Shown in pieces: positions 9,501 to 63,237 of a stretch of DNA of 64,000 nt. The notes beneath the pieces were generated by a model that was not told where the DNA came from, searched no databases, and saw nothing but the letters and a program-made list of their open reading frames with translations. The DNA comes from Candidatus Rifleibacteriota bacterium (lineage in GTDB: Bacteria > Muiribacteriota > Ozemobacteria > Ozemobacterales > Ozemobacteraceae): the NCBI GenBank assembly GCA_018818125.1, contig JAHISQ010000115.1, positions 62,001 through 126,000 of the forward strand. The letters are read 5' to 3'. Position 1 is the stretch's first letter. Every line of letters starts with the position of its first letter. The position numbers and the translations under genes were made by a program.

Positions 9501-9585
9501 CGTGTCAAAATAAACTGTTATACATTCAGCCCATGCTGTTGTAAAATCAGCTTATGCAATGATTGCCAGAGGAGGAAACCTGAAA

Positions 9586-46059: not shown

Positions 46060-46066
46060 CTATGCA

Positions 46067-48190
46067 TCATCCTTCCTGCCGGCCCGGCAAGTAAAACTTG
46101 AATTTCGTACCTCTGCCAGCTGCACTAGTGACTTCAATTTTTCCTCCGTGCAGATCTACTATCTTTTTAACTATTGCCAGACCCAGCCCGGTGCCACGCT
46201 GGCGCGTGGTGAAAAAAGGCTCAAAAATTCTGCCGGTTGTCTCTTCTGGCATTCCACAACCGTTATCTTCGACTTCGAAAACAGTCCAGAGACTGTCCTC
46301 TTCTTTGAACGCCCGGATAAATACTTTGCCGCCCTTTTCCATGGACTGAATAGCATTAACGATAAGGTTCAAGAATACCTGTTTGATCTTTTCCGGGTCA
46401 ACAAATACCTTGAGTTCATCCTGATAATCAGACTCAAGCGCAACTTGATGCCGGTCTGATTCATGGCGAACCAACGCCAGCACTGGCTTGATCACCTCTG
46501 CAAATGCTATTTCGCAAAAGCTTGATCCTTCAGGCCTGGCATACTTAAGCAGCTGCTCAACCACTCCATTCAAGCGGTTTACCTCGCTGACGATAACGTC
46601 GATATACTCGCGGCGGCTGTCGTCAATTTCGGTTTCTTCCTGCAGAAGCTGACCAAGAGTCTTGATCGATGCGAGCGGATTCTTGATTTCATGCGCGACG
46701 CTGGCAGCGAGTTGCCCGATCGAACTGAGCTTATCAGCATGATAAAGCTGCTGCTCAATGATTTTGCGCTGAGTGATGTTGGTAAGAGTCAAAATAATAC
46801 CGTATGGCTTTTTGTCATTACCGAGCAAAGTCGAAAAGCTACCCTGCAAAACCTTTGTGCCGGCATATTCACCCTGTTCGAACTCAATGTCGAACTGGCG
46901 ATCGTATTCCGGGTCGCCAACACGTCGCAAAGCAGCCAGCATATCGAGCCGCGATTGCGGCTTTAGCTTTTTAACAAAGCTGCGTAACGACAGGCCCTCA
47001 AGCTCGGGGTAAAACTCACTAAGTTCCTGTGTGGCCGCATTATTGGCGGTTTCGATATGACCCCGCAAATTCCAGGTGATAACACAGGTACGCAGACTGC
47101 CAAGTATGTTCTGAATGTAGTTGGCAAGCTTTTCTATGCGCTCTATATAGTGCTGCAGACGGTCCTGATTCTGCTTAAGGTTGCTGGCCATGCGATTGAA
47201 TGAACGTGCCAGATTGCCAAGCTCATCACTGCTGACCGACGAAATCTGAAAACTTAAATCACCTTCAGCAATAATATTGGCGCCATCACGAATCTGCCTG
47301 ATTCGTGAAATAAGAACTTTCTCTGAAAAAATTATCGACAACAACAGAGTCGCAATCAAAATCCAGGCAGTTACACTGAAATTCTGCCATTGCGCCTCTT
47401 CAACCAAAGACAGCATTTTTTCCTGCGACACCGCCAGATAGATCAGTACCGGATCATTTTCAACGGTTTTTTCGATAATCACACGGCCAATAGAAAAAAC
47501 TGTCATACCTAATTTCAGGGTAAAAATGTCTTCCTTGCGGTCATTATTGCGAAAGTGCTCAAGTGCGAGCTCCTGGCGACTGCTCCCAGGCAGAGAAGAA
47601 GCGAGCAGCTTCTCCTTAACCGCCATTGAAACTTCAGCCTGCAGATTACGCGCCATGCGTTTGAGGCGAGTATCATCAATTTTGCGCCGCAACGCCAGAC
47701 GGCCAATAAATTCGCCAAGTTTATGAACAGGCACCTCTGATCTCACAAACAACGCACCATCAACTTCCTGCAGCGTTACCCACGATAGATTTTGCAGGGT
47801 ATCGTGACGGTTGATTGGTGGCCCCCGCCGACTTGCATATTGATTGCTCGACACTATCTGGCCGCTGACCAGAGTCATCTCAAGGTCGTAAAAACCGGTT
47901 TTCGAGATCAGGCGCTCCACCTCATGCTGCAACATGTTATTGAGACCATAGGTTGAATAGTTGATGATCTTTTCAGACTCGGAGTAAAGAATTGCGTTGT
48001 TGAGCAGCAGATTCTTTTCTGAGTCCCAATATGATTTTATCGAGGCAAGCAACAATTCGATACGCTGTTGAAATATCTCACGAGTCTTTTCCTGGATCAG
48101 TCTGGTCGAGCTTTCATTGATAATCAGCGCGAGACTGCTGATCAAAATAAACAACAGTGAAATTACTTTGATGCGCAAGGATATATACAT
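46067..48190 (-). CDS. Membrane sensor histidine kinase (HAMP-PAS-HisKA)
   Basis: The 707-residue protein has an N-terminal transmembrane helix (KVISLLFILISSLALII), an extracytoplasmic sensor region of about 240 residues, a second helix (FSVTAWILIATLLLSIIF), and HAMP (IRQIRDGANIIAEGDLSFQI). A PAS domain (about 350-470) is followed by HisKA with His500 in VAHEIKNPLAS and HATPase (NLIVNAIQSMEKGG, EDNGCGMPEET, RGTGLGLAIV). It resembles NtrB/AtoS-type partners of NtrC regulators. It overlaps the upstream gene by one base (TAATG) and is followed after seven bases by the regulator gene, so the three form an operon. Confidence 0.96.
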   Translation of the reverse strand: MYISLRIKVISLLFILISSLALIINESSTRLIQEKTREIFQQRIELLLASIKSYWDSEKNLLLNNAILYSESEKIINYSTYGLNNMLQHEVERLISKTGFYDLEMTLVSGQIVSSNQYASRRGPPINRHDTLQNLSWVTLQEVDGALFVRSEVPVHKLGEFIGRLALRRKIDDTRLKRMARNLQAEVSMAVKEKLLASSLPGSSRQELALEHFRNNDRKEDIFTLKLGMTVFSIGRVIIEKTVENDPVLIYLAVSQEKMLSLVEEAQWQNFSVTAWILIATLLLSIIFSEKVLISRIRQIRDGANIIAEGDLSFQISSVSSDELGNLARSFNRMASNLKQNQDRLQHYIERIEKLANYIQNILGSLRTCVITWNLRGHIETANNAATQELSEFYPELEGLSLRSFVKKLKPQSRLDMLAALRRVGDPEYDRQFDIEFEQGEYAGTKVLQGSFSTLLGNDKKPYGIILTLTNITQRKIIEQQLYHADKLSSIGQLAASVAHEIKNPLASIKTLGQLLQEETEIDDSRREYIDVIVSEVNRLNGVVEQLLKYARPEGSSFCEIAFAEVIKPVLALVRHESDRHQVALESDYQDELKVFVDPEKIKQVFLNLIVNAIQSMEKGGKVFIRAFKEEDSLWTVFEVEDNGCGMPEETTGRIFEPFFTTRQRGTGLGLAIVKKIVDLHGGKIEVTSAAGRGTKFKFYLPGRQEG

Positions 48191-49152
48191 TATAAATCAC
48201 CCATTATCAGCGCATCATACTTATCGTTCGACTTTTTCTCAATCCATTCAATGTCGGCAGGGTAGTCAAGATCGATAAAACGCTCATCTGCAGAATGGCA
48301 ATCGTTGTCTGCCGGGGTAAAACCAGCAGCAGCTGGAACATACAAACAGAGTCTTATCCGCAAATATCTTTTATTATCAAAGGCCGGAAACGGCAAAAGA
48401 CGAACCTTGCCCATATTCTGCCGGCACAGTCTCTCATCATCAATATATTCGGCGGGAACCCAGTGTGAAACAAACATGGAGTCAGCGGCAGCAAAAACGT
48501 CCATGGCAAGCCCCAGATCGGCCTCCAGCGAAAAAGGGTTCAAGAAATGTTCTTCGATGGCACGGTAAAGGAATGCGATAGAATCGCGTCGGCGCCAGAA
48601 GGTCAATGTCGGTGAATTGGTTGCATGAATCGATGAACTGGCCACTTCTGCGAAGAGTATGTCAAAATTTCGCAGGGTAACCCTCGAACTCAGCGATTCA
48701 AACCAGGGAAAACTATCAGGCGACTGCTTCTTAAGACCCTGCAATAATGTTGCAAACTGCTCTCCGCTAAGAGTTCCTGTTATCGGGAGATCGGGCACCC
48801 TGAGATTGGCAGCTAGAACCCACACAAGATCCAGATGGGTATTGGCCTCCACATAATTTTCCGGTATTAATGATTTATCCATCCCATGTTCCTGTAAGAT
48901 AAAACTACCAGAGGCTTCTTTGCCAATAATCCTGTTATCGTCAACAGGTTGCAAAATTATAGTGCCATGAGCTTCAAGTTTTTGCATCAGTGTGCGCCTT
49001 AACATATCGAGTAAAGCTGGCGTAAATTCAAGGCGAGAGCTTAAAAACACTCGAGTTGCGGCTGGCAGCGTTGTTGCTGCCAACTGCAGCAATAGAAGCA
49101 GCAGCGCTACAGCTGATTTGTTGATCAGCACCTTATTATTAATCTCTTTCAT
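48190..49152 (-). CDS. Periplasmic binding-protein-like component of the two-component operon
   Basis: The 320-residue protein has a Sec signal peptide (SAVALLLLLLQLAATTLPAA). The mature part alternates alpha and beta. The segments RVFLSSRLEFTPALLDMLRRTL, LDLVWVLAANLRV, LGLAMDVFAAADSMFVSHW and LLPFPAF suggest a two-lobed substrate-binding fold of the extracellular solute-binding type, but no exact family is recognised. Its position as first gene in an operon with a membrane sensor kinase and an NtrC regulator suggests that it detects a ligand and signals through the kinase. No transporter genes are nearby. Confidence 0.75.
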   Translation of the reverse strand: MKEINNKVLINKSAVALLLLLLQLAATTLPAATRVFLSSRLEFTPALLDMLRRTLMQKLEAHGTIILQPVDDNRIIGKEASGSFILQEHGMDKSLIPENYVEANTHLDLVWVLAANLRVPDLPITGTLSGEQFATLLQGLKKQSPDSFPWFESLSSRVTLRNFDILFAEVASSSIHATNSPTLTFWRRRDSIAFLYRAIEEHFLNPFSLEADLGLAMDVFAAADSMFVSHWVPAEYIDDERLCRQNMGKVRLLPFPAFDNKRYLRIRLCLYVPAAAGFTPADNDCHSADERFIDLDYPADIEWIEKKSNDKYDALIMGDL

Positions 49153-49251
49153 GTTTGCAGCATCTTAGCATCAGCCTGTGCCATATTTTAACCATCATCC
49201 AAAAACACACAATCATACCAGATATAAGAAAAACATGAATCACTAACTTCA

Positions 49252-49261
49252 TGTATATAAT
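49252..49261 (+). promoter_or_regulatory. Extended -10 promoter for the deacetylase gene
   Basis: TGTATATAAT gives a consensus TATAAT (49256-49261) with an upstream TG. Transcription from about 49268 would start downstream of the ATGs at 49251 and 49260, which supports ATG 49293 as the translation start. Confidence 0.5.
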
Positions 49262-49292
49262 GACTTGTATTTATTTTGTCGATAGCAGAGGC

Positions 49293-50318
49293 ATGAGAAC
49301 TAAACTTATCGCTATTTGCAAATATGCATGCCTCGTGCTCTTTATGTTCACAGCGTTGCAGCTGCCAGCCAGCAACCTTATGAGCAAAGACACCGAAGCG
49401 GTCAGCGAATATTACGAAGCCGATCGCAACGCCCTTGCAAAACAGCTTAACCCGGAAGAAGAGCTGGTCAACGACACTATAAGCAACTTTGACAATTATT
49501 ATGGGCGACCACAGCTGGTAAAAATGCTCAGCAACACCCGTCAGATAGTGCTCACCTTCGATGATGGTCCACACCCGCGAACCACCCCCAAAGTACTTGA
49601 AATTCTGCGCCGGCGCCATGTAAAGGCAATTTTTTTTGTACTCGGACTTCAGGCTGCAAAATATCCTGCGCTGGTCAAACAGATTCATGACGAAGGCCAT
49701 CTGATCGGCAACCACTCATACGGCCACAAAAATCTCGCCCAGCTTAGCGACGAAAAGTTGCGCGAAGAACTTACGCGCACCAGTCGCCTTATCGAAAGCA
49801 TAACCGGACAAAAACCAGTGTATCTAAGGCCTCCCTACGGCGCCATGAACCGCAAGGTCATAAAAGTCGCACAGCAGGAAGGCATGAATATTATGCTCTG
49901 GACAGTTGACCCCAAAGACTGGTTACAGAAAAATGAAGCCAGCATATTGCACAACACCGAGCGTCAGCTCGGTATGACCAGCGGCAAGTTACACGGCGGC
50001 GCCCTGCTGTTGCACGACATTTATCCCTCGACCGTCAGAGCGCTCGAACCTCTGCTTGATCGTCTGGCAGCACATGAATTCAGAATCACCAGTATTGACA
50101 ATCTCAATACTGACTCCAATAAATTCTGGGCGGCAGCTCAGCCCCGGATTCTAAGAAGCGCCAGATTTCATCACCACTTCGATCCAGATCTCTCCGGCAA
50201 CAATGCGTTGATAAGTCTTTTAAAGCCGCAGCAGAAAAACAGCAGGTCGGCAATAGCCATGCTCAAAGCACACAAAAACGGTGCTCTTCTTGCTTACCTG
50301 CTCAACACCGCCAGCTGA
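49293..50318 (+). CDS. Polysaccharide deacetylase (NodB homology domain)
   Basis: The protein has 341 residues from ATG 49293. A signal peptide (KLIAICKYACLVLFMFTAL) is followed by a linker, then the CE4 domain at about 85-280. It carries the catalytic and metal motifs TFDDGPHPRT (Asp-Asp), HSYGH (two His), RPPYGAMN, and late strands IMLWTVDPKDW and GGALLLHDIYPST. It removes N-acetyl groups from peptidoglycan, chitin-like or exopolysaccharide chains outside the cytoplasmic membrane. ATG 49251 and 49260 are open but lie at the predicted -10 box. The C-terminal 60 residues are basic and unassigned. Confidence 0.93.
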   Translation: MRTKLIAICKYACLVLFMFTALQLPASNLMSKDTEAVSEYYEADRNALAKQLNPEEELVNDTISNFDNYYGRPQLVKMLSNTRQIVLTFDDGPHPRTTPKVLEILRRRHVKAIFFVLGLQAAKYPALVKQIHDEGHLIGNHSYGHKNLAQLSDEKLREELTRTSRLIESITGQKPVYLRPPYGAMNRKVIKVAQQEGMNIMLWTVDPKDWLQKNEASILHNTERQLGMTSGKLHGGALLLHDIYPSTVRALEPLLDRLAAHEFRITSIDNLNTDSNKFWAAAQPRILRSARFHHHFDPDLSGNNALISLLKPQQKNSRSAIAMLKAHKNGALLAYLLNTAS

Positions 50319-50425: not shown

Positions 50426-51721
50426 ATGCTGTTACTCGCCCGGTTGAACAAGAATTTAACATTTGTGTTGTTGCTGATCATTTTAATCCTTGCAACATCA
50501 TCTGCCCAACTGGATGCCAAGGTCTGGACAATTGAAGACTTTTTTCAACACCGCCCGGATGTTCGCGACAATATCAAGAGCTGGTCAGGTAAAACTGACC
50601 CGGAATGGATATTGCGCGAATGGATTAAGATTACAACCGAACGTGGTGAAGACTATCAGCTGGCGCTGGCAATTCTTAATGGAACCCAACCGTCTGAGTC
50701 GGTGACCCCACCAGCAGATTCCAGTCCTCAACCTTCTGATGGTTTTGGCGAAAACACTCCGGTTTCAGGCTTTGTACGCCCGGCCGATGATAATGGCTGG
50801 GGAGTTCACTGGTTTCCCACAGTGTCGCAGTCCAGGGAAGAAGTCGACCGCTTTGTGAAAATAATCGATGAGTTACATATTAAATGGGTTCTGTTTCTCA
50901 ACCCGGGAACTGATTTAAACGCTAATGAATATCTGGTTGACAAGCTGGTTGCGAAGGGAATTATGCCGGTTATGCGCCTGTATTACAGCACAATCTACAC
51001 TCCCTCGGGAGAAGAGATCGAGCAGACTGGAAACCTGGTCGAGCATTTTGTCAGAAGAGGTGTGCATTATTACCAGATTTACAACGAACCCAATTTACCA
51101 TGCGAATGGGAAGGAAACGTTCTTCCGGAGAACTCAGTATCGCGCTGGGCAGACGCTTTTATTCCTCGCGCCCAGGCCGTAGTCAAGGCTGGTGGAATAC
51201 CAGGAATCGGTGGTCCGGCTTTTGGTTACATCAAAACTGATGGTTCTTACGGCAATGGTTCAGATTACTTCAGACAGATGGTTGAAAAACTGGTAAGCCT
51301 CAACCAGAAAGATCTGCTCGCACGCTCTGTCGTGGTAATCCATAACTACACCACCGACTCGCCACCCAGCGATAAAAATCAACGGGAAAAATATTGGCAG
51401 TTTGAAACCTACCAGACGATTCTCGGTGAGCATGACCTGTTTCTGCCGATGATTGGCGGAGAGGGCGGAACCCGACCTGAAGATGTTGGCGGCAATATGA
51501 ACAAGCTCGCTGATAACGTCACCTGGTGTTATGAACACATGGCATCGGCACCGGATTACTATATGTCTTTCGCGCACTGGTTGCTGGCAGCTCCCGAGGG
51601 AAATGAGTGGCGCAAACATGCGATGTTCGACAACAACGGATCTCCTTTGCAGAAAGAGTTGATTGACAGGATGCGAGCGGCGCGTCCTCCGGCAAGAAGC
51701 AGCGGTCAGGGGAATGATTGA
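50426..51721 (+). CDS. Secreted clan GH-A-like glycoside hydrolase
   Basis: The protein has 431 residues. A signal peptide (NLTFVLLLIILILATSSAQ) is followed by a segment of about 45 residues (RPDVRDNI..GKTDPEWILREWIKI) that recurs in the protein at 54406. After a Ser/Pro-rich linker comes a TIM-barrel domain (about 110-420): WGVHWFP, VLFLNPG, IYNEPN with candidate acid/base Glu221, and IGGEGG with candidate nucleophile Glu346. This is the two-glutamate pattern of clan GH-A (GH5/39/53-like). Substrate unknown. GGGAGG precedes the ATG. It heads the plus-strand arm of the pseudopilin region, 43 bases before the next gene. Confidence 0.85.
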   Translation: MLLLARLNKNLTFVLLLIILILATSSAQLDAKVWTIEDFFQHRPDVRDNIKSWSGKTDPEWILREWIKITTERGEDYQLALAILNGTQPSESVTPPADSSPQPSDGFGENTPVSGFVRPADDNGWGVHWFPTVSQSREEVDRFVKIIDELHIKWVLFLNPGTDLNANEYLVDKLVAKGIMPVMRLYYSTIYTPSGEEIEQTGNLVEHFVRRGVHYYQIYNEPNLPCEWEGNVLPENSVSRWADAFIPRAQAVVKAGGIPGIGGPAFGYIKTDGSYGNGSDYFRQMVEKLVSLNQKDLLARSVVVIHNYTTDSPPSDKNQREKYWQFETYQTILGEHDLFLPMIGGEGGTRPEDVGGNMNKLADNVTWCYEHMASAPDYYMSFAHWLLAAPEGNEWRKHAMFDNNGSPLQKELIDRMRAARPPARSSGQGND

Positions 51722-51764
51722 AGCTACTGATGGTTTTGACAATCGTCTGAACTAGAGGATAAGT

Positions 51765-54002
51765 ATGCTGTTGCCCCTTCGCAAAAAAGCCATGGCCTTA
51801 CCGGTAATTCTTGTTGTAATGCTTGTCGTTGCAATCTTCTTTATCACGGCGGCTTTTATGACTCGAAACCAGCAGCATCTGGCCAGCTTTTACCTGGACT
51901 CGGAAAACGCCATGAATCTGGCTGAGAGCGCAGCACAGGAAACAATATGCGCACTAAGAACCCTGGTGTTTCCTGATTCAAACAGACCCGGCCTGAAGAA
52001 ATTATTTGAGCAACTTCTCGATGTTGAGGCCGGCAAAGAGCAGAACAAAATCAGCCTGGAGCCTGGTCCTGAGATCATAAAATTCATGACCGACAATGAA
52101 ATAGCCGGCACCAGTCCCTTGTCGGTTAAAATCACTGCATATTTATCGCAATTCAATGCTATTTCGATGCCGGATTCAGCCGTTGGCATTGTTGAAGATC
52201 CCAAAGAAAAAGAAGGTTTGATAAAAATCGAGGTAAGGGTGGAATACGGCAAGGCAGTCAAGGCTCTCAACATTATTCATAAAGTAAAAGTAGCCAGAAT
52301 TGTTCACCCGGTCTTATCAAGATTCAGTCTTTTTTTAAAAAACGCACCGGCCGGATCGGGCTGGCTGGACCAGATCAACCCGTTACATCAAGACTCCGCC
52401 AGCCTGCAGAGTGACCCACACGCCTATTTTCAAAAAAATAATCGAAGACTTGCCGCTCCGATTATTTTGAATCATGGCAAAACGGTTGATCTTGCTCCCG
52501 ATGGCTCTTATGATTTTGTTTCGAGCAAACCTCAGATAGAGAAATTAGTTTCTGAAAATGCGCCAGTCTTTCTAGGTGGAAAATGGCGTTTAGGAATGGC
52601 AGAAGGAACCCCCCAAAGCCAGTTTTCAGAAAGATTTCTGGTCAGACTGGCGAGTTATGACATCATGGAATCAGTCGAAGCTTTTGACCGCAAGGCCAGG
52701 CAGACGGGCAATTTGAGTCCATATCCGCGAGCCAGCATCCAGGCTGCTTATGTTCAGATGTTCGGCATGAACAATGACTGGTTGATGGATACCCGGGCAA
52801 TACCGCTTGAAAACACTCAGGGTTTTCAGTTTTACCGTCACTACCAGGACAACACTCCGATTCTCGATATGAAAGGCAGTAGTGCCCTGCGCCTTTTCGG
52901 ATCTTATAAAGAATTCAGTCCAACTATGGTTCTTGGCGATGTTGAGAGATATTATCAGCGACTGGTAACCATGGATTGCGTTTTCAAAAACCGGCTTTTT
53001 AACGCGGTAACCATGCCCTTTCTTGATCATACGAATTTTCAGCGCCTCAGATATCCGAATCAGCTGGGCTTGTATTTTCGCGATTCTCGTACGCTCAACA
53101 CTCTTCAGGGCGTGTCAGCAGTCATGGGCATACGTATGGGCAATGATGACGATGTAGCGTTAGCCTGGGAGTTTTATCCGAAACAACTAAGCTGTACGCT
53201 GATTTCCGAGCATTTTATGCGCGGCCTTGATTTTATTCTCACCAACCGGGAAACTGGTGCCGTTGGCGTCGACATCACCAAAAACAATGGCACAACCCCA
53301 ATGCCGGCAAACGGCGAGATTTTCAGCATGCTTAGTTCACAGGCACTGGAAACCTCAAAGGTCGGCGCTACTGAACCGGAAACACCCTTAAAAGGCCGCG
53401 AGGTGACAGTTAAAGACAAAAATGGCAACCTGCTGTTTAAGGGCGATTTGATGGGCCTGGACGGATATAACGATGTTCTGGTCAGAACTGCATTCAAGTT
53501 TAACTCGAAAATGGAGCTCTTTGAAAAATGCGCATGGAAAAAGGGCAGCATCTTTCATCTGGCACTTCCGGGCAACGTTATCCTCGGTGGCGACAGCAAT
53601 TCTGAAATAATTTTTGACGAGCCTGTAGAAATAGATCGCGGAGGCATGATTGTTGTGCCGGGTTCGGTGATAATTAAAGCGCCGATCAGATCTTTGAACG
53701 GAGAGACACTGACCATTGTAGCCCGTGATCAGATCGTAATAGCAACGTCTCAGCCAATTGAAGCGTCTTTAATTGCCATGAAAAAGATCAGCAAAGATTT
53801 TTCCGTAGATGGTTTTGCAATTAAAGGACCGGTAACTTCTGGCGAACTGGATCTACAAAATCTCGTCACTGGCGGGAATTCAAAGAGCATCAGTTATTCA
53901 GAAAACTTCAATGAACTCAATTTTTCTCTTGGAGATCAGAGGTTTCCCAGAAGATTATCACTGTCTGACGAATTCAGGCAATATTACGGAAAGGCTTTTT
54001 AG
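51765..54002 (+). CDS. Large PilX/GspK-like pseudopilin
   Basis: The 745-residue protein starts like a prepilin: basic leader RKKA, then MALPVILVVMLVVAIFFITAA, without Glu at position +5, as is typical of GspK/PilX-type minor pilins. The N-terminal helix continues to SFYLDSENAMNLAESAAQE, again GspK/PilX-like. At 745 residues it is far longer than GspK (about 320) or PilX (about 200). The last 250 residues look like a right-handed beta-solenoid (NVILGGDSNSEIIFDEPVEI, GSVIIKAPIRSLNGETLTIV, IVIATSQPIEASLIAM). It could be a pilus-tip protein carrying a large binding domain. Confidence 0.8.
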   Translation: MLLPLRKKAMALPVILVVMLVVAIFFITAAFMTRNQQHLASFYLDSENAMNLAESAAQETICALRTLVFPDSNRPGLKKLFEQLLDVEAGKEQNKISLEPGPEIIKFMTDNEIAGTSPLSVKITAYLSQFNAISMPDSAVGIVEDPKEKEGLIKIEVRVEYGKAVKALNIIHKVKVARIVHPVLSRFSLFLKNAPAGSGWLDQINPLHQDSASLQSDPHAYFQKNNRRLAAPIILNHGKTVDLAPDGSYDFVSSKPQIEKLVSENAPVFLGGKWRLGMAEGTPQSQFSERFLVRLASYDIMESVEAFDRKARQTGNLSPYPRASIQAAYVQMFGMNNDWLMDTRAIPLENTQGFQFYRHYQDNTPILDMKGSSALRLFGSYKEFSPTMVLGDVERYYQRLVTMDCVFKNRLFNAVTMPFLDHTNFQRLRYPNQLGLYFRDSRTLNTLQGVSAVMGIRMGNDDDVALAWEFYPKQLSCTLISEHFMRGLDFILTNRETGAVGVDITKNNGTTPMPANGEIFSMLSSQALETSKVGATEPETPLKGREVTVKDKNGNLLFKGDLMGLDGYNDVLVRTAFKFNSKMELFEKCAWKKGSIFHLALPGNVILGGDSNSEIIFDEPVEIDRGGMIVVPGSVIIKAPIRSLNGETLTIVARDQIVIATSQPIEASLIAMKKISKDFSVDGFAIKGPVTSGELDLQNLVTGGNSKSISYSENFNELNFSLGDQRFPRRLSLSDEFRQYYGKAF

Positions 54003-54401
54003 ATGTTCAGAAATAATCCGCTAAAAGGTATGACATACATTGAATTGACAGTCGCTATCTTCATTACCGTAATTATTACCGGGATCGCGATCCGTATTAT
54101 GACGCAGATGAATCAGGGTTCTGAAAAGATATCGAAGGATTCAATGTATTATCAGACAATAGGAAGATTTTTGGGTCAGGTCAGGGCAGATTTACGAAGT
54201 GCGACAAAAATCGAACAGCTTGATAATACTATTGTTCTGACCATTGCCACCGATGATGAGGGCAGGTTCGATACCATAAGTTTTGTAATCGATGAGGAAA
54301 AAAACAGCATAATCAGAAATGCTGACCAGCAGCGAAGCACCTATGATTTTGGCGAGCCTCCTGAGAATGCTGGTAAATTTGTTTTCAAAATCGAAAGGTA
54401 G
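54003..54401 (+). CDS. GspJ/PilW-like pseudopilin
   Basis: The 132-residue protein has a prepilin leader ending in PLKG followed by MTYIELTVAIFITVIITG, with the expected Glu at +5 and a class III signal helix. The globular part (FLGQVRADLRSATKIEQL, DTISFVIDEEKNSIIRN) matches the GspJ/PilW pattern 'l..dlr.a..i....', where a short strand ends with an R-rich turn. It starts one base after the stop of the large PilX/GspK-like gene, so the two are translated together. Confidence 0.87.
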   Translation: MFRNNPLKGMTYIELTVAIFITVIITGIAIRIMTQMNQGSEKISKDSMYYQTIGRFLGQVRADLRSATKIEQLDNTIVLTIATDDEGRFDTISFVIDEEKNSIIRNADQQRSTYDFGEPPENAGKFVFKIER

Positions 54402-54405
54402 CTAC

Positions 54406-54939
54406 ATGAAAAAACAAGAACGGAGCTGTTTTTTTACCTTGTTACTGGTGAGCATTCATTTGCTGACTTGCACAAGCGCTGTTCAAGCTCAGAATGCCAG
54501 CGAAACCCGGCGGCTTTCGATCGGCTTTGAAAACCAGCTGATCGAGCTTAAAATACCAACCCCAATGCTAAAAAACTCAGAAGCCAGCTGGGTCAGTTCA
54601 GCAACCCCGGAAATTGCCGGAGCCTATCTGGCACCGATTCCAGAACCTGCTCAATGGATAGAAAATGAATATCGACCAGAGAAGCTGGCCGAAAAACCGG
54701 GACAAATGGATAATATTCCCCAGAAACGCCAATTTCCGGATCCGTTTGACGAGGCGATGAGTCGGCGCCAGGCGGCAATCGATTTTTTAAAGCGCCGACC
54801 AGATATCCTTGTCTTTGTCCGTGACAATCTGGGGGAAACAGATCCGATAAAGGTGCTTGAGCGCTGGGTATACGAGATTATGCAGTCGAGCGACTCAGAT
54901 TGGCCCGAAGCAAAAAAAATCCTGGAAGAAATGAACTAG
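54406..54939 (+). CDS. Secreted protein sharing a motif with the glycosidase
   Basis: The 177-residue protein (ATG 54406, AAAGG eight bases upstream; an open frame from 54319 overlaps the pseudopilin and is not used) has a signal peptide (CFFTLLLVSIHLLTCTSAV). The middle is Pro/Glu-rich. The last 55 residues (FLKRRPDILVFVRDNLG, ETDPIKVLERWVYEIM, DWPEAKKIL) align with the segment after the signal peptide of the glycosidase at 50426. This suggests a small shared docking or binding module. It is the last gene of the plus-strand arm; three bases separate it from the stop codon of the convergent pseudopilin gene. Confidence 0.78.
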   Translation: MKKQERSCFFTLLLVSIHLLTCTSAVQAQNASETRRLSIGFENQLIELKIPTPMLKNSEASWVSSATPEIAGAYLAPIPEPAQWIENEYRPEKLAEKPGQMDNIPQKRQFPDPFDEAMSRRQAAIDFLKRRPDILVFVRDNLGETDPIKVLERWVYEIMQSSDSDWPEAKKILEEMN

Positions 54940-54942
54940 ACT

Positions 54943-55518
54943 CTAATCTTTCCAGATAAGCGCTTCGCCTACGGCCTCTGAAAGCCGGGATTTTCTGGTA
55001 ACTCTGAAGCTGAAATTTTCTGTTTTACCGGTGTTTGCAGCAATTATTACAAGAGTCACTTCAACAAATGATGCCTTATCAGCCGCTACTTGTTCTTTTC
55101 CTGATGAATCAAAAAAGTTGAGGGTAAATTGAAAGATTGAGTAACCCTGTGTCAGCTGCGAAAAGGACCATTTTTTTTCAGCAGAGCCCGCCCGGCGAAC
55201 TATTTCTCTTTTATCATCTGAAAATTCGTATTCCACATTCTCGAGATTTCGACCATCTTCTTGTAATACGCCATATAGGCTTAATGACGAATCCTTTTCA
55301 CACCCCATATTACTAACCGAAGCCATGTCGTGACGAAGTTGTTCTTCAACCAGCGCAATCAGAGAGGAACAACCCGTTTGAGCTGTTCTCTCGGATTCAT
55401 CCTGGCGAAATATCAGAAACAGGTTGAATGTGATTACGAGTATCATTACAAAGATTACAATCGCCAGCGAGATTTCTACAAAAGTAACCCCGAGCCGGGT
55501 AGTTTTACAGAAATTCAT
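54943..55518 (-). CDS. GspJ/PilW-like pseudopilin
   Basis: The 191-residue protein has a prepilin cleavage site in TTRLG followed by VTFVEISLAIVIFVMILV, with Glu at +5. The globular part (LVEEQLRHDMASVSNMG, YEFSDDKREIVRRAG) has the GspJ/PilW pattern of a strand followed by 'IVRRA'. It overlaps the preceding gene by four bases (ATGA). It is the last gene of the minus-strand arm and meets the plus-strand arm with a three-base gap. Confidence 0.88.
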   Translation of the reverse strand: MNFCKTTRLGVTFVEISLAIVIFVMILVITFNLFLIFRQDESERTAQTGCSSLIALVEEQLRHDMASVSNMGCEKDSSLSLYGVLQEDGRNLENVEYEFSDDKREIVRRAGSAEKKWSFSQLTQGYSIFQFTLNFFDSSGKEQVAADKASFVEVTLVIIAANTGKTENFSFRVTRKSRLSEAVGEALIWKD

Positions 55519-55934
55519 AGCATTCTGTCTCTAAATACAATCGCTGGCAATGAAAAATCCTGATCGAAATCTTTAATACCTGGTCTTGCCCATTTCACAC
55601 GCACTTTAAATTTATAGGCAAAAACTTTTGGCAGGGCTCGATCAAACCCGGAAACTGGATCAATCAATTCACTTGATGGAATTATTTCGAAATCTATGCC
55701 GTGCACATTGCGAACTTCTGGCTGCAGAATTTCCTGAGAAATTGAATCAGCCAGCTTCATTTCTTCGAGTTTATTAGAAGCCAGCGAGCCTGCTATTACA
55801 AGACGTTTTGCATCAACACTCTGCCTTCTGATTTCGCTGAACTTAGGAATCATAGGCACCAGAAAAAGCCCGAAGATCAGCATTGCCGCCATTATCTCGA
55901 CAAAACTGAAGCCTTTGGGCAAAATACTTTTCAA
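55515..55934 (-). CDS. GspI/PilV-like pseudopilin
   Basis: The 139-residue protein has the leader LPKG followed by FSFVEIMAAMLIFGLFLVP. The next segment, ASNKLEEMKLADS, is the 'a..kleemk' helix end characteristic of GspI/PilV. The C-terminus (YKFKVRVKWARPGIKDF) is a beta strand typical of the globular head. It is coupled to the GspJ-like gene at 54943 by an ATGA overlap. It starts 30 bases after the adenylate cyclase stop codon. Confidence 0.9.
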   Translation of the reverse strand: MKSILPKGFSFVEIMAAMLIFGLFLVPMIPKFSEIRRQSVDAKRLVIAGSLASNKLEEMKLADSISQEILQPEVRNVHGIDFEIIPSSELIDPVSGFDRALPKVFAYKFKVRVKWARPGIKDFDQDFSLPAIVFRDRML

Positions 55935-55964
55935 TTGGATTACCCCATTGAACCTGACTGACAG

Positions 55965-57629
55965 CTAAGCATCTGGCTTTGCAATACCTGGAGCAGAAGT
56001 GTTTTCTGGTCTAGCAGAGTCGCTTACAATATGATTGGTGCGGCTGGCAACCTGGTCCAGTTTTGTCTGAATTGAAACGACCTTGGCACTTCTTACCTGT
56101 TCAAGAATTTCGTAAACGGTTATTGGCACATCAAGGCCTCTTATTCTTACGTTTTCGCGCTTAACATGTTTAACTGTACGCGGCAGTTGCGCAAAAGTGG
56201 CTTCATCAACAAGCATGCGCGTTCCTAAATCCTTGTTCAATGACTCTAGGCGCGAGGCAAGATTGACGATAGAGCCCATGACCGTGAATTCCTGACGACG
56301 CGACGAACCGATGTTACCGGCAAGGACTTCACCAGTAGCAATACCAACCCTGATATTAAATCCCTCTATGCCGCGAGAAGCCCAGTCAGCGCTGAGTCGA
56401 TCGAGCTCACAGAGCATGGCACAGGCTGCTTCCACTGCATTTTTAGCGGGATAAGCCAGATCACTCAGAACTCCAAAGCGAGCCATAATGGCATCACCAA
56501 TAAATTTGTCGATTTCGCCCTGATAATCAAAAATCACTTCAGTCATACATGACAGATACTCGTTCATCAGAGAAACAACTTCTTTAGGGCTCATGCGCGA
56601 ACTGAGCGCAGTAAATCCCGCTATATCAGTAAACAAAATTGCAGCATTCTTGTTAACGCCGCCAAGATCAATCTTTTCGGGATTTTTGAGAAGATTTTCG
56701 ATCAACGCAGGAGATGTGTAACGCGAAAAAATTTCTTGCAGACGGCGCTTTTCAGCAATTTCCTGTTCAGAAACGAGTTTTGCAGAAGTTAACTCTTCAC
56801 GGGTCTGCACAAAAATATCAGCGTTGGCGAGTGCACCCCCGATAAAAGTTGGAAGCGATGACAAGAACCTGATCTCATTCTCATCAAGCTCGGTGTGGCC
56901 GTCAGAAAACGATTCAACGTGAACAACACCGTAACTCTTGTTCTGACTGAAAAGTGGAATCGCCACCAGCGTGTTCATCATCGGCTCACGATCAAGCAAT
57001 TTACGCAGCTCAATATCACTGGCAGCAATTCCGCGGTAGACGGTCTGCTTTCTTTTGAGTGCATAGGTCAGCACATGTGCGTGATCGGCCTGCATCGCAA
57101 ATTTTTCTACCGTTGTGTCTGGATAGCCCGCCCAGCGAAACGGGTAAAGCTCATTGCGAACTGGATCGACCAGAAAAACAATATACCTGCTGGCACCTAA
57201 ATCGGCCTCAATAAGCGAAGAAATGGATTTAAACAGTTCGTCAGGATCTAGTGTGTCGAGCAGGTTCTTAACCTTCATCATGACCATCGAAAATCTCTGT
57301 CGCACCTGCTCGATTTTCTTATCGAGCAGAGCCTGCTTCGCCTGATAATCAGTTCTGATCTTTCTAGCGTAAGAAGCCTCTATCGCCTTTTTTACGCCAG
57401 CTTCGATGGTGACTTCCTTGCCAATAGCCTTGTTTATTATTCCAAGTAAAATGCCAAGTAAAATCACTATAACCACAACCAGCGCTGCTACTACTGTCCA
57501 GGCAAAGGGCGAGGGTTCAACCACAAGAGCCACAGGTTCCTGGGCAGCAGCAATCTTCGCAACAAACACCAACATGGCGGCTACGTAAAAGAAGCGATAG
57601 CGCGGCTTGTAGATCAATCTGAAAAACAT
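55965..57629 (-). CDS. Membrane-bound GAF-domain class III adenylate/guanylate cyclase
   Basis: The protein has 554 residues. A frame open to 57680 overlaps the pseudopilin gene; ATG 57629 is preferred. An N-terminal hydrophobic segment and a second helix (WTVVAALVVVIVILLGILLG) are followed by a short coiled coil, a GAF domain (about 110-275; YIVFLVDPVRNELYPFRWAG, VVHVESF) and the cyclase domain (about 320-500). Metal-binding Asp residues occur in LFTDIAGFTALS and GEIDKFIGDAIMARFG, and the Asn/Arg pair in VNLASRLESLN. The Lys of DKFIGD and the Thr of EFTVMG at the base-recognition positions suit ATP (class IIIb), so cAMP is the likely product. It sits inside the pseudopilin operon. Confidence 0.92.
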   Translation of the reverse strand: MFFRLIYKPRYRFFYVAAMLVFVAKIAAAQEPVALVVEPSPFAWTVVAALVVVIVILLGILLGIINKAIGKEVTIEAGVKKAIEASYARKIRTDYQAKQALLDKKIEQVRQRFSMVMMKVKNLLDTLDPDELFKSISSLIEADLGASRYIVFLVDPVRNELYPFRWAGYPDTTVEKFAMQADHAHVLTYALKRKQTVYRGIAASDIELRKLLDREPMMNTLVAIPLFSQNKSYGVVHVESFSDGHTELDENEIRFLSSLPTFIGGALANADIFVQTREELTSAKLVSEQEIAEKRRLQEIFSRYTSPALIENLLKNPEKIDLGGVNKNAAILFTDIAGFTALSSRMSPKEVVSLMNEYLSCMTEVIFDYQGEIDKFIGDAIMARFGVLSDLAYPAKNAVEAACAMLCELDRLSADWASRGIEGFNIRVGIATGEVLAGNIGSSRRQEFTVMGSIVNLASRLESLNKDLGTRMLVDEATFAQLPRTVKHVKRENVRIRGLDVPITVYEILEQVRSAKVVSIQTKLDQVASRTNHIVSDSARPENTSAPGIAKPDA

Positions 57630-57642
57630 TTCTTGAGGCCTA

Positions 57643-58329
57643 TCAGTAAGTCGGCGCTGAATCCGAAAAAGGCGCCACATTTAAGCGAAATTTATGATTC
57701 ATCGGAACTCTCAAATCACCAGCAATATAACCATCAGGAGGAGCCATAATCAGCGATATTTCAAGAAAAGTACCGATGGCGGCGGGATTGGCACCATCTT
57801 TAGTTTCTTCGGTATTATTTGGAGTTTTAATAACCGAAGAAATCTTGAATTCAATTCTTACCACGTCATCAATAAAAATCGGACGCGCACCGCCGACAAG
57901 AGTGAGACGATGGCCACTTTTGACCAGGGCAAAAATATTGTGAACACTGGTGTGATTGGATGTCATCATATCAATGTTGGTCTTGCTGACATTCCAGGTC
58001 ATAATGTTGCCATCGGGAGCTCCGGTTGGGTCTGGATGGAACTTAAAAGGCCTTGGCATTTCATTCAGCATCATCTCTGGAACCCCACCGGGACCAGGCT
58101 TGAATTCAAACTCAAGTCTATTAGTAGCTTCTTCAAGCGCTTTGCGCATGTATGTCCAGAAAATATCGGCCTGCGCGGTTCGCTCCTGCTTCCATGCCGT
58201 AATTTTAAAGGAACTGTTGCTTCGACTGTACAGATACATTACGGCTGTGATGAAACCAGCCATTACCAATATTGAAGTAACAATTTCAATTATGGTAAAA
58301 GCCTTTTTACTCTGTAATTTTAACTTCAA
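57643..58329 (-). CDS. GspJ/PilW-like pseudopilin
   Basis: The 228-residue protein has the leader LQSKKA followed by FTIIEIVTSILVMAGFITAV with Glu at +5; cleavage after Ala rather than Gly is less common but known. The following TAVMYLYSRSNSSFKITAWKQ and the region FWTYMRKALEEATNRLEFEF fit GspJ/PilW. The start lies 23 bases inside the preceding gene (58307), indicating tight coupling. It precedes the adenylate cyclase gene by 13 bases. Confidence 0.88.
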   Translation of the reverse strand: MKLKLQSKKAFTIIEIVTSILVMAGFITAVMYLYSRSNSSFKITAWKQERTAQADIFWTYMRKALEEATNRLEFEFKPGPGGVPEMMLNEMPRPFKFHPDPTGAPDGNIMTWNVSKTNIDMMTSNHTSVHNIFALVKSGHRLTLVGGARPIFIDDVVRIEFKISSVIKTPNNTEETKDGANPAAIGTFLEISLIMAPPDGYIAGDLRVPMNHKFRLNVAPFSDSAPTY

Positions 58330-58861
58330 TCAGCTCCTCCATGGTTTTGCGTGTCCCGTTAAAACTGCCCCAGGCCCTTATTCTAAGAAAATCCTGAGTA
58401 TAACCATGCAGGCTGCGCGATACCAGATCAAACTCTTCGACGCCAAATTCAAATGACACCGCAGGAACTTTGTCGGGAGCGCCGCCAGCAAGAGCACTGG
58501 ACTCAAGGTGGGCTTTTATCTTTGCAGCCGGCGTACCCCGATTTTTGCTCTGAAAATCATACAACCAGATCATTCTTGTCAAATTGAATTCATCTGAACT
58601 TCCGGTGCCGGCATTTATGTCGAGTGCCATCTGATGAATACGATAATACTCGGAAGGCAAAACCCGGTATTTATAAATAGCCAGTTGAATTGCTGATCTT
58701 ACCGCCATTAAAGCACGAGTCTGCTCATATTGCATGCTTTGCGCGCCGCGACGATGTCTTGTGTTCATCATCAGAACTGTTAACAGCCCCAGAATAGCTG
58801 TGCAAAACACCAGTACTATCGCAATAGCTACACCTCGCCGCTGCATTAATCTGTTCATCAT
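58307..58861 (-). CDS. GspK/PilX-like pseudopilin
   Basis: The 184-residue protein has a prepilin-type start MQRRG followed by VAIAIVLVFCTAILGLLTVL, which lacks Glu at +5. It is followed by YEQTRALMAVRSAIQLAIYK, where 'a..a...a' matches the N-terminal helix of GspK/PilX. Its length is close to PilX. It overlaps the GspI-like gene upstream by ATGA and the GspJ-like gene downstream by 23 bases, giving the order I-K-J in one coupled set. Confidence 0.86.
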   Translation of the reverse strand: MMNRLMQRRGVAIAIVLVFCTAILGLLTVLMMNTRHRRGAQSMQYEQTRALMAVRSAIQLAIYKYRVLPSEYYRIHQMALDINAGTGSSDEFNLTRMIWLYDFQSKNRGTPAAKIKAHLESSALAGGAPDKVPAVSFEFGVEEFDLVSRSLHGYTQDFLRIRAWGSFNGTRKTMEELIEVKITE

Positions 58862-59469
58862 TGGCTCATATCCGCCCTGAAGGTTTCAAGTTCAATCGCT
58901 TCGCGATGCCCATAATCAACACGCACCTTTAAACAGACAAGATTGTCAAAGCATGAATATGTAGCCACGAGACCTGGTGGTAAGGGATCTGGCGGAGGGA
59001 ACGGCACAGGTGGGCCAGGCGGCAATTCGAAATTTCTAAAACTGAACACCAGTGCATCGTCATGCTGTATCTCAATGTTTTGCGCGCGAAAAAGCGTGGA
59101 AACAGCAACACTCACCGAATAAGAGGCACGGCCAATGACCACTGCACTGGAACTTGCAGTCATACCGGTAAAGTTGAGAGCGCCGCTGAAATCACCGTCT
59201 GGCGTCTGAATATTGAGAGGCAGCGTGCCAAGGGTGCCAGAAATAAGTTGATCGTAATTGGCGGTGAGCAAAACACTCACTACCGATTCGCCAAGTTTGA
59301 GGGCAATTTCCTCCTCAAGTTGGCGAGTTGCAGTACCATAGGAGCTTGTAAAAGCGCCAATTGCCGGCAAAATGGCCAGAGCCATAATAACCAACGCAAT
59401 CAGTATTTCTACAAGAGTTACACCATGGCGACAGCTTCCTGCAGTCATTTCTCTATCTGTTTTGCTCAT
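58858..59469 (-). CDS. GspI/PilV-like pseudopilin
   Basis: From ATG 59469 the protein has 203 residues; ATG 59448 is an equally possible start, while an open frame to 59505 lies deeper in the upstream gene. The leader ends in SCRHG, followed by VTLVEILIALVIMALAILPA with Glu at +5, and then KLGESVVSVLLTANYDQL, which is PilV/GspI-like. A proline-rich insert (ELPPGPPVPFPPPDPLPPG) in the head domain is unusual. The end (VDYGHREAIELETFRADM) is the expected beta strand. Confidence 0.85.
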   Translation of the reverse strand: MSKTDREMTAGSCRHGVTLVEILIALVIMALAILPAIGAFTSSYGTATRQLEEEIALKLGESVVSVLLTANYDQLISGTLGTLPLNIQTPDGDFSGALNFTGMTASSSAVVIGRASYSVSVAVSTLFRAQNIEIQHDDALVFSFRNFELPPGPPVPFPPPDPLPPGLVATYSCFDNLVCLKVRVDYGHREAIELETFRADMSQ

Positions 59470-61741
59470 GCTTACGATCCAGAACCCGAATATTCGGATT
59501 TTCATTGGTAATTCTGATAAAGAGCTTCATACTGCGTTCAAGGCCAGCATAATCAGTAGCCTTGACTTCTATATACGGAAAATGTTTGTCCATAAGTTCT
59601 TTTTCATCTGAACCCGCTACGGGAAGTGTCGGTTCGCGAAATACTACACGCAATTTGCCATTAACGCTTTCCTGACGGTCGAATGGCACATGATAACTTG
59701 CGCGCGGGTACTGATTCGGTATTTCGACTGTCATTTCACCATTTTGTACGCCAGTAGGTATATTGATAATGTTATCGAGTTTCTGGCCAGAACCGTCGAT
59801 AGTTGCCCACTTGATGTTGTCATCTGCCCAGACATCGATCAGATATTCAACGTCTTCCTGTATCATGGCTTTTTTGCCCGGCAACTCAAGCAATGCTACC
59901 ACTCTTTTACCAAAACTGTTGCGCTTGCCAAAAGTTAATGGATCAAGCTCTGGCGCACCGTCAATTTGACGGGTATCTGATTTTTCAAAATCTTCAAGTC
60001 TGAAATGCTTTTTAATGAAATCCAGGTCGGGCTGAATAATGTATTTATTAATCATGAGATCCTTTTCGGAGGGCCGCATGCCATCGCTTGGAATAATATC
60101 AACAATGCGAAAATACATCTCCTGACTGCCGTCAGCAATGCTACTGCTCGATGCTATGATGGCCCCCCCCTTGGACGGCGCAATGAAGTCAACGTAATCG
60201 CCTACGTTCAAATCGGCCGGCGCCGCGCCGGACTTGTATTTAGTCGAGTGAACTATACTGAAGTCAGGGTCACCATACGGAATGATCGGTGGAAAAAAGA
60301 TTCGGCTGCCATCTTTTACTGATTCGATTCTGATTACAATGTTGGGCAAATCATTATCTCTTATATTTATAAAGCCCTGACCGCGCCTGAAATCAGCATT
60401 AAGCTTGGCCTTTAGTTCTTCTACATAAGTATCATCAAAGTCTTCTTCCTTGCGAAACTCAACCTTTATCGGCCATTCTCTGGCCTTATCAGGCTCATCT
60501 GATAAATCAAGGTCAATATTGCTGCCGGTAAAATCGACATTGCCAGCACCAGTTACCGTAGGTCCGAGACCGTAACACTTTAACGGATCGTCTTCATAAA
60601 TATTGGGATCACCAGGATTGAGATTGCCGTTTCTATCCCAGGCATATAGGGTATAGCGCATGAAACCATGGCACGAATTGGGCATTACAATTTGATCTGC
60701 GTTGCTACCTGATTCGATAACGGTCGGCTTCTCAAGAATCCAACTTTCATCACTGCTCCAACTAACCCGCGGGGAATCATCGATTTTGCCCATCAACAAA
60801 GCAGTTCCAATTTTTCCGCCCGAATTGTCGTTTATTCTAAGACCCTCAACTTTATACCAGTCGCCAGTTGTTGCCGGTTGATTCGCGCCCAGCTCAGGGA
60901 AATCACCGTTAACACAACCATCAATTCTCGGCGGCGTACGATCTTTAAATTTCATCGTAAACTCAATACCACTCTGCTTCTCGACTATCGGACTGGCATC
61001 GACGCAGTTGTCCATAATAGTCTTAGCTAGTTCTTTGTATATATTATTAGGGGGAGCAGGATCAGTGTCTTTTATGTGTGAAGCCCAGGTTGGAACCATC
61101 TTGCTAGGGTCGTCGGGATCCTCTTCTTCCCCATCTTTCTCACAGGGAGGGTCTGTGCAAAAACGCCGGTAGTCGTCACAAGAAAGACTATTCGGAAGGG
61201 GTTGCGTAAAAAATTTAATGTATTTATAACTTGCGTCGAGACATAGAAAATACTTTTTCTCGTGTGGATTGCGGGTTGTCTTGTAGTCTTCAAATACAAG
61301 TTCGTTAGATGAGGGGTGGGACTGTTTGGAGACCCATGTTTTTTCTCCAGTTATTTTATCTTCGACCAGAGAACCATATTCGAGGTAGAGGTTGGCAAGA
61401 AGAAAACTGACAAAATCCAGATTGCCGGTTTCCAAGATAAGGCCACCACTATTTTTCAATCTGGTAAAAAATTTATCGGCAGTGCTTTTTTCAGCAAATC
61501 CCTGAAAATCACTGCTAATCTCGCCCTGTTTTATCAGTGGGCCGTCGCCTGCAAAAGTTGCCCTGATTCCGGTAATCGGCTTAACATCTTCGAAAGTATC
61601 GACCGGGCAAATAAAGTCGCAGACCATCTGAATCGAGCTCAAGATGCTCATGGTGATCGCGACTGAATCGTCGTCAGCACGCAATTGCTGTGAAGTTACA
61701 GAAAAAACAAGTATGAGACACAACAACATCAGTCTTTTCAT
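59453..61741 (-). CDS. Large secreted protein of the pseudopilin operon
   Basis: The 762-residue protein has a signal peptide (LMLLCLILVFSVTSQQLRA). It lacks a prepilin leader. The mature part is beta-rich, with cysteines in MVCDFICPVDTFED and DPPCEKDG-like DPPCEKDGEEEDPDD. The lead-in KFKDRTPPRIDGC and the end EVKATDYAGLERSMKLFI repeat the pattern of the two secreted proteins at 28047 and 29097, which points to a shared Ig-like family. It overlaps the TPR-protein gene upstream by ATGA. In this operon it may be the substrate or tip partner of the pseudopilins; no family is recognised. Confidence 0.78.
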   Translation of the reverse strand: MKRLMLLCLILVFSVTSQQLRADDDSVAITMSILSSIQMVCDFICPVDTFEDVKPITGIRATFAGDGPLIKQGEISSDFQGFAEKSTADKFFTRLKNSGGLILETGNLDFVSFLLANLYLEYGSLVEDKITGEKTWVSKQSHPSSNELVFEDYKTTRNPHEKKYFLCLDASYKYIKFFTQPLPNSLSCDDYRRFCTDPPCEKDGEEEDPDDPSKMVPTWASHIKDTDPAPPNNIYKELAKTIMDNCVDASPIVEKQSGIEFTMKFKDRTPPRIDGCVNGDFPELGANQPATTGDWYKVEGLRINDNSGGKIGTALLMGKIDDSPRVSWSSDESWILEKPTVIESGSNADQIVMPNSCHGFMRYTLYAWDRNGNLNPGDPNIYEDDPLKCYGLGPTVTGAGNVDFTGSNIDLDLSDEPDKAREWPIKVEFRKEEDFDDTYVEELKAKLNADFRRGQGFINIRDNDLPNIVIRIESVKDGSRIFFPPIIPYGDPDFSIVHSTKYKSGAAPADLNVGDYVDFIAPSKGGAIIASSSSIADGSQEMYFRIVDIIPSDGMRPSEKDLMINKYIIQPDLDFIKKHFRLEDFEKSDTRQIDGAPELDPLTFGKRNSFGKRVVALLELPGKKAMIQEDVEYLIDVWADDNIKWATIDGSGQKLDNIINIPTGVQNGEMTVEIPNQYPRASYHVPFDRQESVNGKLRVVFREPTLPVAGSDEKELMDKHFPYIEVKATDYAGLERSMKLFIRITNENPNIRVLDRKHEQNR

Positions 61742-63237
61742 GGTTTACTCCCTGTCAGGGCATCTACTAATAAATATGCCATTCCTTCAAAAGTTTCATC
61801 ACTCTTATCTTTACTATAGCCTATTAACAGTTCACGCTCAATATCTTTCATGAACTTGGGATGCCATCCGGTAGCCGGACGACCAAGACCAGTTAGAACA
61901 GCCTCTTCGAAGTCTGATTCATAGATCTGATATTTTAGATTTTTGCGCGCCAAACCCACAAAATAACAGGCTCTGGTCCTTACCGATTCTCCGGTGATGC
62001 TATAGCTCAGAAAACGCTGAGCACCATCTATCTGACCAATTTTAAAAAGACAGATCCCTACCAGATAATTTAACCAGGGCACATTAAGATCACGCGCCAC
62101 TTCTATCAGGCCACCAAGGCAATCAACAGGCGACTTCGTCATGGTTATGAACATGCACTTTACAAATATCCAGGCAGAACCTATAGAAAACCTCATCAAC
62201 AAATCGTCGCAGGCTTTCCAGGAGTAATAAAACACGACCGGGATTGCTCCGATCAGCAACAGAAGAGTGAGATAGTAAACAAAGTGCAACCTGACGTGGC
62301 ATTCAGCACGATAGCCAAAAGTCTGATAAACCTTGCCCGTTTTTTTACTACGACTGAACCCCAACGCCATCAGATAATTGCTTTGACCGTAGTAACCAAC
62401 CGAGAACAACGGAAATAAAGTGTCTTCATCAGGATTCTGTCGAAAGTATTTCCAGAAATCGGCCAGTGCCTGATCATAATTTTTCAGCTTCAGATAGGCC
62501 TTGCCCCGCAAAAGCAAATATTCTATTCGATCCGGCGAATCTGCGATAAGAATATTCAGCGAATCTACGGTCTCCATCATGCGACCCTCCAGAAATGCCG
62601 TCTCAGCTTTATCGACAAAAGACTCCAGCTGATTTACCTGATCTATTCTGGCTTTAAGTTCTAGAGCGGGCTTGTAATTAGGCTCGCGCCCCAGTATTAC
62701 TTCAAGCATTTCCATCGCTTTAATTCTATCGCCCTGTGCAAAAAAACCACGAGCTCGATTCATGTATGAAATCGCCGAGTAAAAATCGACATCATGCGAC
62801 CGACCGCTGGAAGCTGATACTTCTATTCCCTGTGATTTGTATTCATCGATTTGCCGATAAATTTCGCTGACCTGCTTCATCTTTTCCTGGGCAAATACGC
62901 TTTCTGGAGATAATGACAGCAACTCATTCAAGACCTTTTTGGCATCAGGAATATTCTTGGCAGACAGGTAAAATTCAGCCTGCTGCTGCAGCTTTTCGGA
63001 GCGTTCAGTGATTGCTTTTTTCAGTTTACCTGCAAAATCGTTGATTTTTGTATCTTCAGGATCGATTCTATCAGCCCGCTGTAATAAATTGCGGGCCTGG
63101 ACAAGATTGCCGTTTTCAAAAAACACCTCTGCACGGCGCAGGTATTCCCGTGCCTGCGAGCTGTAAGCCAACAGCGGAGCTGCCAGCAACACACACAGCA
63201 ACAACCAGCCCATCTTCATATTTGGATTGAAAGCCAT
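61738..63237 (-). CDS. TPR-repeat membrane protein
   Basis: The 499-residue protein has a signal or anchor segment (WLLLCVLLAAPLLAYSSQA), then TPR repeats (EYLRRAEVFFENGNLVQARNLL-type unit near 30; LLLRGKAYLKLKNYDQALADF near 235). A transmembrane helix follows (about 320-345; LHFVYYLTLLLLIGAIPVVF), then a further soluble region with TPR-like helices (YLVGICLFKIGQIDGAQRFL). ATG 63237 lacks a clear SD; ATGs six and eight codons later are alternatives. It heads the minus-strand arm and could be the scaffold for assembly of the pseudopilins, as TPR proteins are in other pilus systems (inference). Confidence 0.82.
   Translation of the reverse strand: MAFNPNMKMGWLLLCVLLAAPLLAYSSQAREYLRRAEVFFENGNLVQARNLLQRADRIDPEDTKINDFAGKLKKAITERSEKLQQQAEFYLSAKNIPDAKKVLNELLSLSPESVFAQEKMKQVSEIYRQIDEYKSQGIEVSASSGRSHDVDFYSAISYMNRARGFFAQGDRIKAMEMLEVILGREPNYKPALELKARIDQVNQLESFVDKAETAFLEGRMMETVDSLNILIADSPDRIEYLLLRGKAYLKLKNYDQALADFWKYFRQNPDEDTLFPLFSVGYYGQSNYLMALGFSRSKKTGKVYQTFGYRAECHVRLHFVYYLTLLLLIGAIPVVFYYSWKACDDLLMRFSIGSAWIFVKCMFITMTKSPVDCLGGLIEVARDLNVPWLNYLVGICLFKIGQIDGAQRFLSYSITGESVRTRACYFVGLARKNLKYQIYESDFEEAVLTGLGRPATGWHPKFMKDIERELLIGYSKDKSDETFEGMAYLLVDALTGSKP

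Follow-up and report, generated by a model that had tools for sequence, protein, structure and literature searches.

We describe two gene cassettes for minor pilins of the GspI/J/K (PilV/W/X) type in a window of 64,000 nucleotides (the whole stretch of DNA analysed, C22:62001-126000) from a 6.06-Mb MAG of Candidatus Riflebacteria. We suggest, with somewhat better than even confidence, that these are two independent orphan cassettes, the products of which serve as initiating and tip complexes of a type IV filament (pilus or pseudopilus), with the genes of the assembly machines lying elsewhere in the genome. An earlier note on this DNA had described seven prepilin-like ORFs of these types, divided into three partial sets (I-K-J, I-J and K-J). 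All seven are present at the coordinates given there, and the classes assigned (I at 58858 and 55515; J at 57643, 54943 and 54003; K at 58307 and 51765) agree with profile comparison and homologues. The grouping had to be revised to two cassettes, one with I1-K1-J1 and one with K2-J2b plus J2-I2, while the idea of several I/J/K sets with different accessory proteins or candidate cargo is borne out by the gene content of these cassettes.

Cassette 1 (63237-55965, minus strand) contains the following genes:
61738..63237, minus strand: TPR membrane protein of 499 aa, the operon's first gene (TPR families in Pfam; conserved first position; alignment)
59453..61741, minus strand: secreted protein of 762 aa, a predicted beta-sandwich (Ig/FnIII-like) chain (AlphaFold model; family-wide conservation)
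58858..59469, minus strand: I1, GspI/PilV-type minor pilin (N_methyl over cut-off; GspI by hhalign; Glu5 invariant); the ORF opens at 59505, with ATG 59469 as the likely start
58307..58861, minus strand: K1, putative small GspK/PilX-type minor pilin without Glu5 (motif scan; homologues; hhalign)
57643..58329, minus strand: J1, GspJ/PilW-type minor pilin (motif scan; homologues; hhalign)
55965..57680, minus strand: membrane protein with GAF and class III nucleotide cyclase domains, its start overlapping the J1 end (Pfam; follows J1 in the family)
Cassette 2 (50426-55934) contains:
50426..51721, plus strand: secreted glycosidase with an RPDI module after the signal peptide (NEPN/EGG motifs; weak GH39 PDB match; module)
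51765..54002, plus strand: K2, putative large GspK/PilX-type minor pilin of 745 aa (motif scan; K1 by hhalign, 92%)
54003..54401, plus strand: J2b, second GspJ-type minor pilin (GspJ by hhalign, 94%)
54406..54939, plus strand: small secreted protein of 177 aa with a C-terminal RPDI module (module alignment; homologues in L160 and L184); the ORF at 54319 overlaps 54003-54401, and ATG 54406 is the likely start
54943..55518, minus strand: J2, GspJ-type minor pilin (hhalign, GspJ 76% and J2b 98%)
55515..55934, minus strand: I2, GspI-type minor pilin (N_methyl at cut-off; I1 by hhalign, 97%)

In a motif scan, each of the seven pilin ORFs showed a leader of positive charge, a G/A cleavage site and a stretch of hydrophobic residues; Glu5 was seen in the five I/J-type proteins and, as expected, in neither of the two K-type proteins. 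The Glu5 pattern matched one further ORF of the window, encoding a membrane protein of 257 aa at 9559, a match that is probably due to chance. The Pfam N_methyl cut-off was reached by only two of the seven (55515 and 58858), so the class calls lean on homologues and on profile comparison (hhalign) with GspG-K of E. coli K-12. GspI was the best match of I1 (85%), to which I2 is related in turn. J1 matched GspJ (81%, tied with GspG at 81% mostly through the N-terminal helix) as well as J2 (91% over about 105 columns). J2b matched GspJ over 100 columns, and a GspH/FimU type for this protein was rejected for that reason. The K assignment is the weakest of the class calls: GspK was the best E. coli match of K1, yet only at 28%, hhalign returned no match between K2 and GspK, and neither K protein matched PilX or T2SSK in Pfam. 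Glu5 is invariant in the alignment of I1 (12 homologues) and in that of J1, as is the Gly of the cleavage site in that of K1; a model of K1 from the single sequence was poor (pLDDT 52).

The earlier note had found no ATPase, platform protein, secretin or prepilin peptidase in the window and had placed the filament machine elsewhere. Indeed, a profile search for T2SSE, T2SSF, secretin and prepilin peptidase gave no match on the whole 143-kb contig C22, and no complete GspC-M operon with these pseudopilins was found there. Genome-wide, the same kinds of gene were recovered as 24 T2SSE (ATPase) matches over the cut-off, nine secretins, seven two-domain GspF/PilC platform proteins along with apparently Tad-type ones, and two prepilin peptidases, all of them off C22. 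From the lack of machinery in the window it follows only that these genes lie elsewhere in the genome.

The genes of cassette 1 overlap or abut, and the order TPR-762-aa protein-I-K-J-cyclase is kept in congeners and other genera of the host's family; tblastn recovers the genes in high-GC genomes where simple ORF calling misses them. (The named relatives are Candidatus Riflebacteria, including Candidatus Rifleibacterium amylolyticum CH46 and Ozemobacteraceae.) Two rumen genomes retain TPR-SEC-I-K or SEC-I-K, in which SEC is the 762-aa protein, without J and cyclase. The cyclase gene matches Guanylate_cyc (3e-26) and GAF_2 (2.5e-9) in Pfam, and its catalytic motifs look intact by eye. The 762-aa protein gave no sequence match in Pfam or the PDB; its AlphaFold model, built from 17 sequences (pLDDT 81.6), found only weak multi-domain Ig-like matches with Foldseek (TM up to about 0.13), and the protein is predicted to be a chain of beta-sandwich domains. 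An identity with PilY1 found no support in Pfam, PDB sequence search or the Foldseek matches; the PilY1 family PF05567 had zero matches in the host genome, but equally zero in all control genomes. In some rumen relatives (L060, L061, L062 and other loci of G018, G021, G022 and G023), the 762-aa protein is represented by two to five paralogues, several with no recognised pilins alongside. A conserved gene group at 44665-50318 of the window, encoding an NtrC-type response regulator, a histidine kinase, a 320-aa protein and a polysaccharide deacetylase, adjoins cassette 1 in four relatives.

In cassette 2, the order glycosidase-K2-J2b-small secreted protein runs on the plus strand, with J2-I2 converging from the other strand. 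The glycosidase gene ends 43 bases upstream of K2; its NEPN and EGG motifs are conserved in five homologues, and its weak PDB match to GH39 beta-xylosidases lies around the catalytic motif. Congeners have the deacetylase (at 49251 here) immediately next to the cyclase, 207 bases away in G002; cassette 2 is absent between them, so it was either gained here or lost there. The earlier view of the region as one specialised system was rejected because the deacetylase directly follows cassette 1 in congeners, and the two cassettes have separate histories. Cassette 1 is kept family-wide, whereas cassette 2 is missing at the corresponding congener site.

By K2, the nearest relatives of cassette 2 are found in G015 (50%) and G020 (49%), both of another genus. 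These genomes share this convergent layout, plus a module-bearing secreted enzyme beyond I2, and an inversion of J2-I2 private to the host genome was therefore rejected. Recent import of cassette 2 from these high-GC genomes is not supported by G+C content (cassette 2, 45.6%; window, 46.9%; G015 and G020, 66-70%), and searches around the cassette for insertion-site repeats and promoters gave nothing above chance. More distant relatives, L069 in the host genome and L163, L164 and L166 in congeners, follow the order K-J-secreted-I-J in a single direction with an SH3/M23 peptidase downstream. Upstream of the L163 cassette are an ECF sigma factor and a FecR-like protein (Pfam), and similar genes were seen by eye in L069, L164 and L166. 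Elsewhere in the window, an SH3 and M23 peptidase gene and the gene next to it (3112-5207) look, by eye, paralogous to the two genes found after the K-J-secreted-I-J cassette at these four loci.

The host region is not unusual within its own genome, which has at least 29 comparable I/J/K clusters under a strict definition (at least two adjacent Glu5 pilins and a K-like gene) and 45 with at least two adjacent Glu5 pilins; the scan covered selected stretches of the genome and counted in some machine-linked clusters. Two layouts recur, I-K-J with a K of 150-290 aa and a large K (650-1000 aa) with I-J. Genomes of the phylum have 25-100 N_methyl matches each, versus 1-57 (mostly below 20) in 17 genomes of other phyla. 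In a profile search, the large-K family was found in 39 of 40 Riflebacteria genomes versus none of those 17, with up to at least 20 per genome among the matches listed. Several I/J/K clusters of the host and its relatives adjoin pairs of an ECF sigma factor and a FecR-like or zf-HC2 anti-sigma-like protein (L163 12891-13418 and 11810-12916, L113 6035-7733, L074 3579-5043, L093 13427-14881, L162 13790-15348), which suggests cassette-specific regulation. About 9 kb past the window end is a third large-K gene, of 703 aa, close to a Glu5 pilin (L064 8539-11657; C22:134539-137657). The window also encodes a secreted protein at 28047-29069 that matches the Tt1219-like type IV pilin family below threshold (E 0.0011), and a 1793-aa secreted protein at 35723-41104, the C-terminus of which (YPNPATG...GVYFYQL...) looks, by eye, like FlgD-Ig or type IX sorting domains.

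A segment of about 50 aa, RPDI...G.TD...IL..W, is common to the glycosidase, where it follows the signal peptide, and the small secreted protein, where it lies at the C-terminus; it has no match in Pfam, PHROGs or the PDB. This module was found in seven of the 40 genomes of the phylum, all in the host's family, at nine loci. Eight of these adjoin large-K minor-pilin genes (the exception being L188 in G008), a linkage that is not independent because the loci are partly related by descent. Three different kinds of domain follow the module: one glycosidase type (G000, G002, G008, G010 and G020), another, PF11790-like glycosidase type (G011, G015 and G020) and a non-glycosidase (G010); one homologue carries LysM. 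At five loci, two modules are split between the cargo and the small protein, or between two proteins; at four, the cargo has two modules in tandem, except in G010 C50, where one was found. These counts hint at pairing, with the second tandem copy not assignable to the small-protein type, and the module could equally be a carbohydrate-binding, peptidoglycan-binding or dimerisation domain. In G011, a 960-aa ORF (L161 718-3600) joins a signal peptide, the RPDI module and an Ig-like region to a K2 without its N-terminal helix; this may be a real fusion or a chimeric artefact of assembly.

Enzymes that directly adjoin large-K genes would also suit secretion rather than display. On this view, a type II secretion-like machine would release both the glycosidase and the 762-aa protein to the medium by means of pseudopilus tips that are each specific to their cargo; in T2SS, tips of the GspK type are in contact with substrates (PMC7541494). 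Cassette 1, however, has a cyclase and a surface-type protein of predicted beta-sandwich structure, not an enzyme, and we regard secretion as a possible but unlikely account. The pilin-like proteins could instead be no filament tip at all, forming a membrane-anchored envelope or surface scaffold independent of pilus machines, in keeping with the absence of co-encoded machinery and with pilin-like genes that outnumber machines many times over in the phylum. This we consider improbable, as filament machines are present in the genome and the three classes I, J and K, complete and with starts of prepilin type, repeatedly occur side by side, in the manner of known tip complexes.

The many, highly divergent copies might also reflect ordinary paralogy, with a minor-pilin operon present in copies that are redundant or decaying, have accidental neighbours and show no specialisation. 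Against this stand intact ORFs throughout, genes that overlap or abut as in operons, and six cassette 1 genes that stay in order across the whole family. Moreover, the enzyme and a protein of its own cassette have a module in common, and purifying selection and conserved co-occurrence have already been seen; we consider such an origin improbable.

Several minor-pilin clusters for one machine have precedents in Myxococcus: a single type IVa pilus machine is shared by three minor pilin/PilY1 clusters (PMC7541494), regulated PilY1 paralogues have been proposed to accessorise pilus tips (PMC9109919), and four Tip complexes of the Kil pilus are interchangeable (PMC12075869). As in clusters 1-3 of Myxococcus xanthus (Treuner-Lange 2020, PMC7541494), there are several minor-pilin clusters, each of which includes a large secreted protein and a K/PilX type without Glu5, and the machine is encoded elsewhere; the gene numbers here fit several clusters per machine. 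In contrast to those clusters, PilY1 has no match here (with PF05567 silent in the controls as well), the large protein being a predicted beta-sandwich chain, and no FimU/GspH-type protein was recognised; clusters run to tens, with a very large K type and with cyclase and glycosidase partners. The KilLMN Tip complexes of the Kil Tad pilus, four interchangeable minor-pilin tips with variable end domains, are a parallel to the tips proposed here, but Kil pilins are Tad-type (TadEFG-like) (PMC12075869) whereas the host pilins match GspI/J/K, the K type weakly so. Profile comparison points to the three pilin classes of the GspI-J-K minor pseudopilin complex of T2SS, with a low score for K; from that complex the host differs in the orphan location of its genes outside a gsp operon, in the duplicated J of cassette 2 and in the length of K2 (745 aa versus 327 aa for GspK in E. 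coli K-12). By analogy with the minor-pilin tips of Myxococcus, the host cassettes are best read as interchangeable filament tips with different cargo.

We infer that the observed gene sets would act through complex formation, choice of a machine, tip position, cargo docking and cyclase coupling. I1-K1-J1 would prime the filament and either present the 762-aa protein or set its position; the TPR protein would be a putative envelope assembly factor, and the GAF/cyclase protein might translate tip state into cyclic-nucleotide signalling. For cassette 2, the outermost tip would be formed by the large K2 together with J2b, J2 and I2, and the approximately 50-aa module may hold the glycosidase at the tip or load it for secretion. 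A broader reading, to which we give tentative credence well short of an even chance, is a phylum-wide quick-change system in Riflebacteria, with dozens of orphan tip cassettes built around the phylum-specific large K and partly under their own ECF sigma factors. A few machines would be refitted with different cargo, with the module serving as a new docking tag for the loading of enzymes onto the tip.

In the literature covered, subscription papers lying outside its scope, we found no description of Riflebacteria pilins. The principle of alternative tips is already known; the scale, the clade-specific large K, the cyclase- and glycosidase-linked forms and the module appear to be new. Cargo selection in type IV filaments and type II secretion is as yet poorly understood, and a phylum with tens of natural I/J/K cassettes and a clade-specific large K offers many natural experiments. 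The short module common to an enzyme and a protein of its cassette is a small, directly testable docking-tag candidate, and cassette 1, which unites a tip set and a nucleotide cyclase in one conserved operon, is a candidate surface-sensing unit.
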